Below, one piece after another: positions 22,226 to 58,900 of a stretch of 64,000 nucleotides of DNA. The notes below the pieces were generated by a model. That model was not told where the DNA came from. It saw only the letters and a program-made list of their open reading frames with translations, and ran no database searches. Origin of the DNA: Aphrocallistes beatrix. Taxonomy: Eukaryota > Porifera > Hexactinellida > Sceptrulophora > Aphrocallistidae. Position 1 is the first letter of the stretch, and each line of letters starts with the position of its first letter. The position numbers and the translations under genes were made by a program. The DNA is taken from assembly GCA_963281255.1 (NCBI GenBank), contig OY725493.1, positions 1,797,550-1,861,549 of the forward strand, in the 5' to 3' direction.

Positions 22226-25200
22226 ATGGAAGTAAATAACTCAATATTGAAGAAGTCACACCCATCTATAAATCTAAAATTTATCCGTACTCTAATCCAC
22301 CTGCTGAGACTCTCTGTGCCAGGCCTCGTTTCTAAAGCTAGATAGAACTGAGTCTATTGCAACAGAGCTACAGCTCACTAGCCCGACAGATGTAGGCTGT
22401 GTTACGTGATGATGCAGCAGTTCCTGATGAAGTACTTCTGGCATGCTATCGGCATGTGTATGGTTCCATTCCCCTCCTGATCAGTCAATAAGAGACCGAG
22501 GGAATGGGATCCAATGCTCCTCGTGACGCCATCACTCCAGGCACAGCTCTATGCAACCAAGAAACACCTCTAGTCACTTCTGCGGACGCATGGGAGAGGA
22601 TTCTCTCTTCTTACAAAGAGGTTACTAATGCGAGACAATATACGCTTTCTTAGCTACTTTTTATACATTATTTTTATATTTAGGTCGAGAAAGAAGTGCA
22701 TCTACTCATTTCAGGTCCTAACGGTTGTGCGAAAAGCTCTCTTTTGGAAGCCTCAGCAACCTCTGACCTTATGGAGGAAAAGTTATAAAACTCCTGAGAA
22801 GCTCTTCTACATTCCACAAAGGTATGCCAATAGTGGATAGAATCATGAGGAGCTAATCAATGCGGGTAATCTGCAGGTTTCAAATTCTATTTACCATTGA
22901 AGCTGCATCGAGTATAGTAAGAAAGTATAGAGAGTATATCTCTATGTTTAAAACTCGAGTTTAATTAACTGTTAAAATATATTTTAGCTCTTTTCATGTG
23001 TGAAAATTCTAGTGAAATATCACATCAAATTATTTCTGCTTCAAAACTTTTGCTTAATAATATATTTTACATCTTACTGGTGATACAGATGCGGCTTTCT
23101 TCTGCCCAGTATGCTTTTAGTTTATCGCATAAATTGCATTATTTTATAAATTATTATTTACAATATTAGTTATTAAAATATTGATTTTAAGCTGTCTATA
23201 TGTGAAAATGGCTGTGGAGCTATTGAGATTGATTCCAATTAATTTAAGCTAAATTACCAGCAATCAATTACCAATTATTGTAGTTCATGTCTCCTGCTAG
23301 ACTATTATTGCCAAAGGTTAGGGTTTGCAATTGCTGGTCCTCATATGGAACGTATGTGTAGTCTGATTGTAATTGTATCTCCTGATAATGCAACTTGTAT
23401 TTATCGACTTCTTGCCTTAGGTCCCTCTTCTTCTCAATGAGTTTTTCCTTCACCTTCTGTAGTTCTGTGATATCTCTCCCTAGCTGTTCAAACTCGACCA
23501 AAGCTTTGTTCCTAGACTTGTTTGCAGTCTTTATGTTAATTAATTTCCTCCTCTTCTCACGGAGACTAGCTTTCTCCTTTACAGAGAAATCTTCGTTTTC
23601 TATCATCTCCCCGACTACACTAGCCGGAGTGTCAGTTAGCAGTGTATCATCAATCAAATGCAGCAGCTGGAAGTTTAGAAATTCCTTGTAGTCACTTTTC
23701 AGGATAGGTTTCAACCTTTCACACATTCGAACTTTTTTGTCTGATACTTTTTGATTTTTCCCTTCACTTGAATTCATCAAAACACTTTCTGTTGTCATTT
23801 TATTTTATATTGTTTGTATTTATTTGTTTGTATTTTGACAAATCCAAGCTTCCACTGTATTTATAGTCCATTTCATTTTCAATCCCACCTATTTTCAATT
23901 TGCAGTTTAGCATATATTAGCATTTTAATTAAAGATGCCTCGCTCAAAATATAAAATTAGATTAATGTCCCAAAAATATCATTTTCACTTTATTATGAAA
24001 AAGAATGTATTGAGATGTTTTCATTATGTAATCTCAAATTATCTTACACATAGAATCACGTGTTGTAAGAGTAAACTGGTTATTTGCACTACGTAGTCCC
24101 TAATTATGCTTACAATAAGCGATATACAAGTATAATTCCAATCCAATCCAACAAAGCATTTTTGTGACTACAGAATTATACTTGGATTATTTTGAAGTGG
24201 TTTGCTTATTATATTTCTCATAAGAAGAGCTTCGTTTGATATGTAATTTCAGCTGGGTAAGTTTGTCCAGTAAATATTTAGTTGAAGTTACGTGAATGGT
24301 TCTTTCTATTCAAATTTCTTTTCGTTTGACTTGGGTGCTAAGCTAGGGACTGTATACACTGGTAATCATACATATCCCCAAGGTTCTCTTTTGAATTTTC
24401 CGTTCTGAGTCGACAATCTTGGTCGCTCCACTGTACTCTACACTTGTTCGGATCTCTTACCCTTGTTTGAAATCATGTTTCAGATCTTGTTTTTGTATCT
24501 CAAATTCCCTTATTATTAAGCACAATCTATTGTTTCGTGGGGAGGGGCCTAGGAGGGACTGAACATCAGGAAAAAGGGAAATGTATTTGTAAGTAATTTC
24601 TCTGATGATGATGAAATGAGGTATTTTGCTCCCAAAGTCCTGTTTACTCACTATCCAGTATTTATTAGTACAAATAAGAGTTTGGAATGATTTGGAAAGT
24701 GCTAACTCGACTATCATATTTATTGCACTTCAAACTGATTAACAGAAATTTGCTAATCGTGAAACAAAAATATTAATATTCGTAAGTAATTTCTCTTACA
24801 ATAAAATGTTATATTCATGACCACTGTGTCCATAGATTGCAAATAAATTCGTTTCTAATTCTACATCTGTTCTGCTTTTGTATCTGTTACTTGTACAAGT
24901 ACTAATGGGGTCAATTATTTTTTTAATATCTCTCACTCTCGTCTAGGCCTTACATGCGTCTGAGGAGTTTAAGGGGCCAGGTAAAAAGGTGACATATCCG
25001 GACACCTTAGAAGACCTGCAGCGTAAAAAAGTGACCACAATACGATCATCACCATGATCGTATTTATCATCATGATATAGTAATATAGTAAACACGATCA
25101 TGAATTACTCTCTCTCACGATATCCCACAGACCCTATCTTTGGTCAGTTCTTGTTTCTATTGAATTATTATTATTTCTTATTCGAGAACGGAGCACCACA

Positions 25201-25443
25201 TCAACCTACTTAACTGATTGGAATATTATTCCTATTTAGGAAGTTCCACATACATTTACTTCAGTTTGATGGGATCCTGAATTGGCATGTTGAACTGAAT
25301 ACTAATGCACGTTTGAGCTGAAGGAGGAGAAAGAACAGCTGGAGCTACAGTTGTCTGGGATTCCGGAAAGACAGCTGCGGTTGAGAGAGCTGTGTGATAT
25401 CCTAGCAGAGTCTTACGTCGTGCTGTCAGAAGCTGATAGTTAA
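22226..25443 (+). pseudogene. Broken peroxisomal ABCD1/ABCD2-type ABC transporter
   Basis: Collinear plus-strand fragments match ABCD1/2 (ALDP) half-transporters, which carry very-long-chain acyl-CoA into peroxisomes. (a) 22226-22340: N-terminus, with KKSHPSINLKF and LLRLSVPGLVSKA. (b) 22394-22481: last membrane helix, RLCYVMMQQFLMKYFWHAIG (compare ABCD1 EQFLMKYVW). (c) 22577-22634: SADAWERILSSYKEV. (d) 22684-22823: VEKEVHLLISGPNG, a Walker A altered from GCGKSS to GCAKSS, then in another frame KTPEKLFYIPQ. (e) 24947-25040: RPYMRLRSLRGQV, then after about 8 extra bases TYPDTLEDLQRKK. (f) 25240-25443: HIHLLQFDG and, after a frame change, QLELQLSGIPERQLRLRELC to a stop. Most membrane helices, the linker, signature LSGGE and Walker B are gone, with at least three frame breaks. 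Splice sites around the 2.1 kb intron (22824-24946) still fit. AATAAA follows at 25550. Confidence 0.9.
23268..23798 (-). CDS. C/EBP-like bZIP protein nested antisense in the ABCD pseudogene intron
   Basis: This 176-residue single-exon protein has a clear basic leucine zipper at about 80-145. The basic part reads NIKTANKSRNK, fitting the bZIP N..[AT]A..[CS]R rule. Exactly nine residues after that Arg the zipper starts, with leucines spaced seven apart (Q-L-GRDITE-L-QKVKEK-L-IEKKRD-L). KSRxKA resembles C/EBP basic regions (KSRDKA). The N-terminal 75 residues are acidic/hydrophobic with no recognised domain; the C-terminus is Gln/Asn-rich. It probably binds DNA as a dimer; the target is unknown. 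It lies wholly inside the 22824-24946 intron of the broken ABCD gene, on the opposite strand. The open frame is intact while its host gene has decayed. Confidence 0.8.
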   Translation of the reverse strand: MTTESVLMNSSEGKNQKVSDKKVRMCERLKPILKSDYKEFLNFQLLHLIDDTLLTDTPASVVGEMIENEDFSVKEKASLREKRRKLINIKTANKSRNKALVEFEQLGRDITELQKVKEKLIEKKRDLRQEVDKYKLHYQEIQLQSDYTYVPYEDQQLQTLTFGNNSLAGDMNYNNW

Positions 25444-25780: not shown

Positions 25781-27035
25781 ATGTCAATCAATATTATTGC
25801 TTACCAAGAAAGATTGAACTGTTCCATTCAGCGGGTGAGAAAGGCCCAAAACAATACATGGGCAATATATGGGCTACAAGATGTTGACTTCGACGTTCCT
25901 TGTGATAAAGATGATGAGTTAATTTTGTTTGTTTTGGCTGAAGGTTACGGAGATGGGTTTCGTCCATTATTGACTCCAAAAACCGCTTATTATTTGTACA
26001 TCAATAACGCAAGTATGGGAGACCAGTCTACCCGTAGACTTTCTCTTGTGTACTGGGTAGGTGGTCAATTGGATGAAAATGTGGTCCGTTCATATGCTTT
26101 TGTCTTTGCCCTTATTGAGAATATGATACGAAGACGAGATTCTGTTTTGATTGCTTCTGCTCATAGAGATATTCTCGATATGCAAGCTGAATATGCTATG
26201 ATGGATAGCACAGAATCACAAAATCGGAGACACGGTGCCTCTATTTCTACCTTGGGTAGCATTCCAATCGATACTCGAAGCAGATCACGTTCATTCCCAA
26301 TAGCGCAGCAAATGAATGTTGATCTTCCTAAAAGTTCCCGAAATCTCAAGATTATAATTATAGGGAATGCTGGCATAGGGAAAACATCAATAACTCGGTT
26401 TTTATGCAATGGAATTAGGCCTGATAATAATGCACCGCATGCTGGAACGATTGGAATTGATGTCTTCTCGAAGAGAATGTCCGTCGACAACAGAACTGTA
26501 ACTCTTGACGTCATCGACACAGCTGGCCAAGAGAGATTTAGTCCACTCCCGAGAGCTTATTATAGAAATGCAAACGGGGTTGTTTTAGTTTATTCTTTTG
26601 ATAAACATGACTCTTTCTAGCTTTGGAGGACTGGCTAAGCCATGCGACGCAAAATACTTTGGATTGTAGACCTGCATTCATCATCCTTGGGAGTAAGAAT
26701 GACATTGAAGCCGGAAACAGAAAAGTAAGCAATGCTGAAGTTTCAAAATTTTGTAATCAGAAAGGAATCGTTAACTTCGAAACTTCCGCTAGGACTGGAC
26801 ATAATATAAATGAAGCTTTCACACAATTGATTCGAACTTATTATGTTTCTAAAATGAACTACAATCGATCTCCAATATTAGCGCTACTAGAGGTTCTAAT
26901 CAAGTTAATGTTGCCCCGCAAAATAATGATATTACCCTCCAGCCTGATGATGTTGTCATTGTAACGCAAAGCATTCGCGGTCGTAGTGGTTCACGGCCTC
27001 AGAACTCTTGGTTACAAGATTGCTGCGAGGTGTGA
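25781..27035 (+). pseudogene. Rab-like GTPase with long N-terminal extension, frame broken twice
   Basis: The first 279 codons hold an N-terminal region of about 185 residues and then a Rab/Ras fold. The P-loop is GNAGIGKTS at about 197, the switch I region contains GTIGIDVF, and switch II is DTAGQERF. After VVLVYSFDKHDSF the frame shifts by one base (about 26618) to LEDWL, SKND (G4; usually NKxD), then ETSARTG (G5). A second one-base shift near 26868 leads to a tail ending QDCCEV with a stop at 27035; the twin Cys suggests a prenylation site. Both shifts equal a single missing base, so this is either a young pseudogene or two sequence errors. The N-terminal extension (NTWAIYGLQDVDFDVPCD, LVYWVGGQLDENVV) faintly recalls ADF-H or gelsolin folds, but I cannot assign it. 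The DNA is AT-rich compared with CEP120 or AP5M1. Confidence 0.7.
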
Positions 27036-55900: not shown

Positions 55901-58900
55901 ACCCGATTCATATCGTTAGGAGAGATGACCCTCCTACAACCCAATCTTTTCTCCATGCGAACAGGTATCTTGTGGAACACCTCTACAATGGCCAGCCCAT
56001 GACACCAGCTGTATCCCATTGTGAGTATGCATTAACTGTACAAAACAGGCAGAGTATGAATTGGATGGTTACCTATGCAACTGGGAGTGAGGCATGTGTA
56101 GAGGCTCTGAGGATATTCCCTTATAATGTAGCTCCACTACCGTTTGCAGGAGTCGCTATCAATCTAGATCTCTTACAGAGAGTTGAGGAATCTGAGTACC
56201 AGTCAACCCTGTACTGCTTTTTCCCTCTCCCCATTTCCACGAGTTTCCCTTTCCACTGCCATGCTATGTTTGAACTGAGGCATGACAGACAGGGTCTGGT
56301 TGATTCAGTAGAAAGTAAGACTGAGTGGAACAAAGTGTTGGTTTCAGATGCGCTCGTCCTCGCTACTCTAACTCTCTACCAGCATCTAGCTGAGAAGGTC
56401 AAACTTTCAAATGACGAAGTATCACGAAGCGCATATATACATATCTTGTACAAAATGTTTGCAAGACAAGTCCTCAGTGATCCTCTCTGGGAAAGTTTTG
56501 CCGTTGCGATCTCAAAACAATTCTCACAAAGTGAATTCGAGCTCTTTCCTCTTACTACGACAAGTGGGATTGATTGGGGTAGTTTCAGTTCAACCTATTT
56601 CCTAGATATTTCTTCAATCAAATCAGATCTGAGAGAACTCTGGTCTGACTCATTCTCAACCAAAGTACACGGTGCTGTAGTGAACTGTGGTTATCCTGTT
56701 GCGATTATTCCAGATTCCATTTGTGAGAACAGTGCCTTGATTTATTTACTATTTGGAAGCCAAACTGATAATATAATCGATCTTAAAATGTTTAAAAACA
56801 TTTTCTTTTCTAATTTATCAAACTTTAGCATTGATTTAATTGTTGACATCCTAACTGTCCTTATCTCCGCCTGTACGGTTCATATCTGGTTGAGAGAAAC
56901 TATTATGTCAACTCCCTGCATACCTTGTGGGGAGGTAGGAACATTCCGGGAACCAAGTAAAGTTGTTGATCCAAACAATCATCTGGTTGCTCAACTTTAT
57001 GAGAGAATCGAAAATAGACTTCCTAGCGATGCGTGCATTGAGGCTATGTTCACCAGTGGCTCAGTGCTAGACATATTGAGGACTAATCTCGGTTTGATTA
57101 CTTTCAAGCTCAGTAATGAAGAGTTGAAGGGTAGAGCCGAGTATATCAGGGTGAACTGTAACAGAGAGCTAGCCGTGAGACTGATCGGATATCTAGATCA
57201 GAAGATATTCACAGGATCTGAAGTTGAAGCGATGCGATCCATCATCTGCAATGTAGCTTTCATTCCAGTAGACTATCCAAATATTACAGAAACATTTTCA
57301 ATCACTTCCAACTTTTTCTCACCTTCTGAGATCATCCCATTCTGTCTAAAACCTATTGCTGAGTTACAATTACCAGTGTGTCCAGATAATTTAACGAGAT
57401 ATCAGGATTTCATAACTAACTTCATTCTATCTAATGATAGCAATCTCACAAGAAATATAGCACTCATCGCAATTAAGGAGTTGAAATTATGTGTACAGCA
57501 TTATGGTACATTGGTGACAGTTATGGATATTCCTGATAAAGTGACTAAGATCTATGAAACGATAGGAGAGCATTGCTTGCCTGATGAATACACTAAAGTA
57601 CCAAACAATGGAATTCTGGTTCCCTCTGTTGGATTTTGTGACAAATCCAGGGTTCTCTTATATTCCGATGAAGATTTTCCACCGTACATCTTCTCACTTA
57701 GTTCCTATTACCCTAGGAGGTCCAGATATCTCCATGATTTCTTTGTGAAAATGCGAATTAGCAAAGCTCTATCACACCTTCAATGCAAGATGGTAATAGA
57801 GGAGTTGTACAACAGACAGGGAAGTATCCCTCTAACTCCACAAGAACAGCAAATTGTTCTAAAATTTATATTTCATATATATAATAGTCATACAGGAAGT
57901 GATAACAAGTTCCTGTTATGTAGGGACAATATCATCCATTTGGTAGAAGATTGCGTCTTTTATGACCTTAATTGGACTGGAGGAGAATCAGAAGTATCTT
58001 TTACACACAAGGATAAAACTTACTACTTTATTCATGATCATTTAAGCAATAAAATAGGATCTGCATTGGGGGCGATACCACTTAGTCACATCAAACTATC
58101 GGGACGCACATCATTACCGTTCACGTACATCTCAAAGGGTCAATCGGAGCCTCTTCCAAGAAGACTAAAAAACATTTTGAGTGAGTACGAGAGTGACATT
58201 GATATATTCAAGGAATTGACACAGAACGCTGATGATGCACACGCGACTGAGATAAAGTTCTTGTTTGACTGCTCGCACTACGGACAAGAACACATAATAC
58301 ACCCGGAAATGAAGCACTGGCAAGGCCCGGCCCTCTACTGCTTCAATAACGCAACTTTCTCTGATGCAGATTTTGAAAAAATTACTCAGCTGGCAAGTTG
58401 TTCTAAGATGGAAGATCCGACCGCTATTGGAACTTATGGGATTGGTTTTAACACTGTCTACCATCTGACCGACCTTCCAAGCTTTGTTAGTCGCCACCTG
58501 CTCACTTTCTTTGATCCGCAAGTCCTGTNNNNNNNNNNNNNNNNNNNNNNNNNNNNNNNNNNNNNNNNNNNNNNNNNNNNNNNNNNNNNNNNNNNNNNNN
58601 NNNNNNNNNNNNNNNNNNNNNNNNNNNNNNNNNNNNNNNNNNNNNNNNNNNNNNNNNNNNNNNNNNNNNNNNNNNNNNNNNNNNNNNNNNNNNNNNNNNN
58701 NNNNNNNNNNNNNNNNNNNNNNNNNNNNATTCCCGTAACTGATGTCTCGACCATTAAGATAACTCTTCAATCTCCTTCGAATCCTCCAACTCCTGAAGAT
58801 CCTGAAGATTCTGAAGAGTTTATAGTCGCATTCTCTTCTGGTACTAAACTCTGCTTCGATCTCGTGAATAGAATAAAGAACGCTAACCAAGTGCGTACTC

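Follow-up and report, generated by a model that had tools for sequence, protein, structure and literature searches.

A probable unitary pseudogene of an ABCD1/ABCD2-type peroxisomal half-transporter in the glass sponge Aphrocallistes beatrix

Identification of the remnant

The question raised by positions 22226-25443 of this stretch is whether a gene for an ABCD1/ABCD2-type peroxisomal transporter has died here, and whether the genome still holds another. An earlier note, made from the letters alone, had called such a dead gene from six collinear plus-strand blocks lying in several frames. The window, that is, the whole stretch of 64,000 nucleotides that was analysed, comprises bases 1797550-1861549 of contig C7 in an assembly of 100.5 Mb and 28 contigs. 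When human ABCD1 (745 aa, the same sequence as PDB chain 7rr9_A) was used as the main tblastn query, its eight top matches in the window all fell on the plus strand within 22226-25443 (best E value 1.4e-6), and the next match had an E value of 0.79. The map was extended with six more ABCD1/2 proteins (from two sponges, a mollusc, two unicellular relatives of animals and one source without known origin). Each of 17 ABCD1/2 proteins gave four to six tblastn matches at E ≤ 0.05 within the segment, and a single match was obtained elsewhere in the window over all 17 queries at this threshold. The six blocks were all recovered, collinear and on the plus strand, with human ABCD1 and the further ABCD1/2 proteins. 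The ORF list contains no plus-strand ORF of at least 120 aa in the segment, in agreement with the remark that an open-frame scan is blind to this gene. A bacterial promoter scan and an Rfam scan gave nothing useful.

Joined together, the remnant pieces score 211 bits against a profile of 17 ABCD1/2 proteins and 63 bits against a profile of 15 ABCD3 proteins (both built here), and their identity ranges from 55 to 60% with these 17 ABCD1/2 sequences (225 columns) and does not exceed about 40% with ABCD3 sequences (187 columns); the pieces were selected by similarity, so that these scores speak for family and not for completeness. The assignment to the ABCD1/ABCD2 type made in the note is sustained by both comparisons. 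An earlier, smaller piece set searched against PDB matched human ABCD1 with 109 bits (E 1.7e-30) and ABCD3 with 53 bits, and among the NCBIfam models the joined pieces reached 101 bits with TIGR00954 (peroxisomal acyl transporter family), the whole-protein cut-off of which is 919. The identity of the remnant is 58.7% to Ephydatia, 56.0% to Sycon and 59.6% to Mytilus, the sponges being no nearer than the molluscs, and in a tree of these columns its place within ABCD1/2 is poorly supported (0.333). Judged from the profile scores and identities, descent from ABCD1/ABCD2 holds.

The competing idea that the blocks reflect chance similarity or a decayed copy of ABCD3 draws on their being individually short, but none of 300 dinucleotide shuffles of 22226-25443 equalled the real best match (43.1 bits, compared with 25.0 in the best of the shuffles) or the real collinear sum (201 compared with 158.8), by which chance similarity is ruled out. 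A decayed ABCD3 copy was rejected on the profile scores given above and on the position of intron 6, which falls where the genome's own ABCD3 has a single uninterrupted reading frame. We therefore regard this idea as having a vanishingly small probability.

Organization of the remnant

All pieces described here lie on the plus strand. An in-frame ATG is located at 22226, and no ABCD match was detected upstream of the exon 1 remnant. The latter (KKSHPSINLKFIRTLIHLLRLSVPGLVSK, 22250..22336) corresponds to about residues 60-89 of human ABCD1 and was matched by an ABCD2-like protein of Ylistrum (tblastn E 2.2e-4, 52% identity); the block that had been called the N-terminus is real, but it aligns with human residues of about 60-90 and not with the extreme N-terminus. 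It is followed by a deletion joint (22337..22341) at which about 210 codons (human 90-300) are gone together with intron 1, and the CTAG that ends this joint may be the old acceptor of intron 1. Exon 2 starts with IELSLLQQSYSSLARQM (human 301-317, 22342..22392) and goes on in another frame as RLCYVMMQQFLMKYFWHAIGMCMVPFP (human 324-350, 22394..22474; tblastn E 1.6e-5 with human ABCD1 and 4e-7 with Sycon), after which a stop is found. The helix QQFLMKYFWHAIG, previously taken for the last membrane helix, is probably TM5 instead, to judge by the topology of ABCD transporters. Between exons 2 and 3 there are 95 bases, in which a stop occurs and the frame shifts, compared with an expected 123 or so exon bases plus an intron. 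The end of exon 3 (LVTSADAWERILSSYKE, human 392-408, 22570..22620; tblastn) stands in yet another frame and is joined to a hybrid intron of 63 bases (22621..22683, gttact...atatttag), which consists of the gt of intron 3 and the ag of intron 5, with borders as in human; exons 4 and 5 are lost, and the hybrid intron fits a single loss of the two.

Exon 6 (22684..22821; tblastn E 1.3e-5) has 138 nt compared with 146 nt in human; it encodes Walker A as GPNGCAKSS, followed by an internal frame break and stops and then by FYIPQ(R). Intron 6 (22822..24946, 2125 nt, gtatgc...gtctag) interrupts the codon for human R545, its position in human ABCD1 too. The start of exon 7 (human 546-570, 24947..25030; tblastn) reads PYMRLRSLRGQ and, after a frame break, VTYPDTLEDLQRKK. 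In place of the exon 7 end, exon 8 and most of exon 9 there is a filler without tblastn match (25031..25113). A repeat was considered for positions 25031-25107 of this filler and dismissed, the genome holding one copy of them. A perfect 10-base hairpin, single in the window, was observed at 25040-25063, within the filler between the exon 7 and exon 9 remnants. The end of exon 9 (LTISHRPYLW, 25114..25142) contains the H-loop; these ten residues are known only as the start of longer tblastn matches (for example with P0293), and the matches of P0245 and P0246 likewise extend back to 25096. Intron 9 (25143..25239, 97 nt, gtcag...atttag) splits the codon of human W664 and leads to exon 10 (25240..25443), which has one frame break (KFHIHLLQFDG...ARLS / ELKEEKEQLELQLSGIPERQLRLRELCDIL...stop) and was matched by tblastn at E 1.4e-6 with human ABCD1 and at E 4e-13 with Sycon, the latter in two linked matches. 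The C-terminal tail of ABCD1/ABCD2 (EEK..LE.QL.G.P..Q.RL..LC) is present at 25318-25413. The exon 2 start, the FYIPQ piece that closes the Walker A exon (22793-22821), the exon 9 end and the KFHIHLLQFDG piece (25240-25314) were absent from the earlier note.

Exon borders and introns

The exon borders of human ABCD1 were derived from published variants and exon sizes. Passages in these sources place the start of exon 2 at c.901 (Val301), the end of exon 5 at c.1488 and the start of exon 6 at c.1489 (PMC8701351); give exons 2 and 3 as 181 nt and 143 nt, which puts the end of exon 3 at c.1224, and the end of exon 6 as c.1634 (PMC3534082); and set the start of exon 7 at c.1635 (PMC6619352) and that of exon 10 at c.1992, the last from the variant c.1992-2A (PMC7330173). 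Every human border position that survives has GT or AG in the window: a donor after codon 408, an acceptor before codon 497 and introns within codons 545 and 664 were matched, and an acceptor-like AG stands immediately before codon 301. This comparison covers the surviving places only, the borders inside the missing stretches being gone. Introns 6 and 9 are kept whole, GT...AG. The SADAWERILSSYKEV block of the note is likewise real, except that its final V would be intronic if the exon border is conserved. With splice sites at the exon borders of human ABCD1, the gene was not copied from mRNA, and a processed copy is ruled out by the retained introns. We propose that the ancestral gene had the human ABCD1 exon borders wherever borders survive.

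Disablement of the gene

The missing parts are human residues 90-300 with intron 1, exons 4 and 5, and further on the last part of exon 7, exon 8 and the bulk of exon 9. A search of the window for PF06472 (ABC_membrane_2) at E ≤ 0.001 found nothing, which together with the loss of residues 90-300 agrees with the claim that most membrane helices were deleted. Walker A is indeed altered, GPNGCAKSS standing in place of GPNGCGKSS, and all 17 references have the Gly that is changed here. The LSGGE signature and Walker B had no tblastn match at 25031-25113, their expected place, as a deletion of both would have it. Frame breaks, put at three or more in the note, were found within exons 2, 6, 7 and 10. 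From the large exon losses, the frame breaks in four exons, the altered Walker A and the loss of signature and Walker B, the call of a dead gene stands.

The surviving pieces cover 83 residues that do not vary among 17 functional ABCD1/2 proteins; the remnant keeps 75 of them (90%) and differs at 8, a count that the choice of pieces by similarity biases toward too little change. When seven functional proteins were held out in turn, each broke 0-5 of 83-88 such residues, and the remnant broke 8-9 on the same sets. The residue change is real, if moderate, and the death of the gene may be rather recent relative to the age of the family. A retention of 90% is a lot for a long-dead gene and counts against our main reading, though the pieces were chosen by similarity.

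We propose that the gene would have died in place through deletions, frame breaks, stops and the alteration of Walker A. The deletions would have taken the bulk of exon 1 along with intron 1, exons 4 and 5, and the region from late exon 7 into exon 9, of which little is left; a further one probably lies between exons 2 and 3. No product able to bind ATP or to cross the membrane as ABCD1 does would be expected from what is left.

Search for other copies

Over the whole genome PF06472 has five matches, of which three lie at C18 and the other two at C10. The C18 locus is an intact-looking ABCD3, the exons of which, when joined, give E 9e-250 with human ABCD3. The C10 locus is a multi-exon ABCD4, whose membrane exons match ABCD4 at E 8e-29. 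The C10 locus had been considered as a second truncated ABCD gene, in which the membrane exons would be followed by a gene on the opposite strand; this was rejected when tblastn with human ABCD4 found the later exons beyond the nested gene, with LSPGE, Walker B and H-loop. The pieces cover human residues 53-229, 272-343, 402-475 and 522-599, some with weak scores and with parts without match between them, and by its sequence ABCD4 looks present. This gene (L008-L009, C10:3855.7k-3864.0k) spans about 8 kb, and the opposite-strand gene nested in it is, by its look, what we take to be a mitochondrial Era-type GTPase.

The joined remnant pieces gave eight matches in the genome, seven to the remnant itself and one to ABCD3. 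With the Ephydatia ABCD1/2 protein as query there were 64 matches (64 of 108 candidates scored), of which four lie at ABCD3, one at the remnant tail and 59 elsewhere at ≤ 39% identity; none of these 59 reaches below query residue 407, below residue 400 ABCD3 alone is matched, and the C-terminal tail of the query matches the window alone. The two strongest of the 59, both to the nucleotide-binding domain, are at C11, and the one inspected (L022) looks ABCB-like by eye. As DNA, 22226-25443 is single copy in the genome. Domain (PF06472), protein and DNA searches of the 100.5-Mb assembly found no second ABCD1/2; as positive controls, ABCD3 was recovered by the domain search and both protein searches, and ABCD4 by the domain search. 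The check for an intact paralogue proposed in the note has thus yielded, besides the window, only the ABCD3 and ABCD4 loci of this assembly.

Two alternatives turn on these searches. The remnant could be a decayed duplicate, redundant beside another working ABCD1/2 gene that exists or did until recently; such families often duplicate, and an assembly in 28 contigs can miss stretches. The three kinds of search, which found ABCD3 and ABCD4 and no second copy in the assembly, speak against it, and we hold it to be distinctly unlikely. The remnant could also be a null allele of the sequenced individual, with an intact allele on the haplotype that was not kept, since reducing two haplotypes to one is common in assemblies. 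The lesions, with three or more large losses, frames broken in four exons and changes at 8 of 83 invariant residues, point to a long decay instead and make this reading highly improbable. Against our main reading stand the remnant's being no nearer to sponges than to molluscs, and the chance that a region with a working copy is missing from the assembly or that an intact allele is carried by the other haplotype. We consider it very probable that the remnant is a unitary pseudogene of a glass sponge ABCD1/ABCD2-type half-transporter.

The nested ORF and neighbouring genes

Intron 6 contains on the minus strand an intact bZIP-like ORF of 176 aa (23268..23798), which matches Pfam bZIP_Maf at E 0.006, below the cut-off. 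Elsewhere in the genome it has 19 matches, 16 of which are free of stops; two of the 19 (L033 and L034), when aligned, share with it a similar basic region and a zipper-like stretch. Such nesting is frequent in at least one glass sponge: nested genes number 2432 in Aphrocallistes vastus, though 83 in Oopsacas minuta, according to a passage of the Aphrocallistes genome report (PMC10282587). The remnant might be retained partly because it serves some other role, such as hosting this ORF, a reading that is compatible with pseudogene status. The 176 open codons, the further matches with their 16 stop-free members and the fact that the home of the ORF is the largest surviving intron favour such a role, but the survival of one intron may be chance, and we think the role fairly unlikely. 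That the nested gene shielded its part of the relic from deletion is an idea only.

Downstream of the unitary pseudogene proposed here, a Ras-like GTPase ORF (25781-26620, +) ends in mid-domain (Ras profile 1-87 of 162), and its remainder seems, by eye, to continue downstream in another frame; this may be a second broken gene. Residues 1-163 of this ORF are not reached by any further genome match. The pseudogene locus is flanked by this Ras-like gene and by an RPS26/DnaJ-CSL pair. At 58165-58890 (-), a listed ORF contains a stretch of X, which stands for masked or unknown bases.

Glass sponges and very-long-chain lipids

Working ABCD1/2 proteins are present in other sponges (Sycon P0267, Ephydatia P0279). 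For the glass sponge, the import of very-long-chain acyl-CoA into peroxisomes would have been lost or left to ABCD3; the loss of the import itself, which the note had made conditional on there being no other copy, is what we infer from the state of the gene. Peroxisomal and lipid genes seem otherwise to be present, to judge by genome matches for six acyl-CoA oxidases, two adjacent Pex19 and 13 elongases (9 of 13 stop-free).

The genome's ABCD3 shares 75% identity with its counterpart in Oopsacas minuta, a glass sponge, and ≤ 62% with the other 119 matches listed; the Oopsacas protein and that of this genome pair in a tree with a support of 1.000, in keeping with a glass sponge as host. Over the remnant columns the corresponding values are 79% to Oopsacas and 67% to the next, from which it follows that an intact Oopsacas ABCD1/2 should rank near the top in a protein search with the remnant. 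Among the best 120 of 2670 matches in that search, the named entries are ABCD1/2, hypothetical or uncharacterised proteins from many animals, Capsaspora and the sponges Sycon ciliatum and Ephydatia muelleri; none of these named entries is from Oopsacas, the unnamed ones being unplaceable. This suggests, without proof, that Oopsacas may also be without ABCD1/2.

Ephydatia is a demosponge. 5,9-Unsaturated acids of 26 to 32 carbons occur in many glass sponge genera and were first described in demosponges, as stated in a passage of PMC2992992. We tentatively propose, though the proposal is doubtful, that glass sponges as a group gave up ABCD1/2 import in connection with these C26-C32 fatty acids: a closed peroxisomal gate would spare the long chains, and ABCD3 would serve the oxidation of the remainder. 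The lack of Oopsacas among the named entries of the best 120 of 2670 matches lends support to a group-wide loss, and the retention of the gene in Sycon and Ephydatia, the class of the latter being where the acids were first described, is against it. No published report of ABCD1/2 loss was found in the portion of the literature searched, and the terms 'ABCD', 'peroxisom' and 'fatty acid' do not occur in the main text of the Oopsacas genome paper, nor 'ABCD1', 'peroxisom' and 'fatty acid' in that of the Aphrocallistes paper.

An animal that belongs to a class noted for C26-C32 acids and seems to have no transporter of the ABCD1/2 type left would be a natural test of how cells manage once the importer is gone, and of the extent to which ABCD3 can take its place. 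The relic would probably be missed by gene prediction, and losses of this kind are therefore easily mistaken for missing data.

Comparison with known ABCD genes

The pseudogenes of human ABCD1, which are copies of exons 7-10, are also non-processed relics of ABCD1; they are partial duplicates beside a working ABCD1, whereas for the sponge relic no working gene was found in the assembly. ABCD3 (PMP70) belongs to the same transporter subfamily, but the relic is about 40% identical to it at most, and the ABCD3 of this genome is uninterrupted where the relic has intron 6. Compared with ABCD1/ABCD2 (ALDP/ALDRP), the peroxisomal importers of very-long-chain acyl-CoA, the relic is without a complete membrane domain, LSGGE and Walker B, its Walker A is altered and its frame is broken; what it shares with them is the order of the pieces, the surviving exon borders and the type of C-terminal tail.
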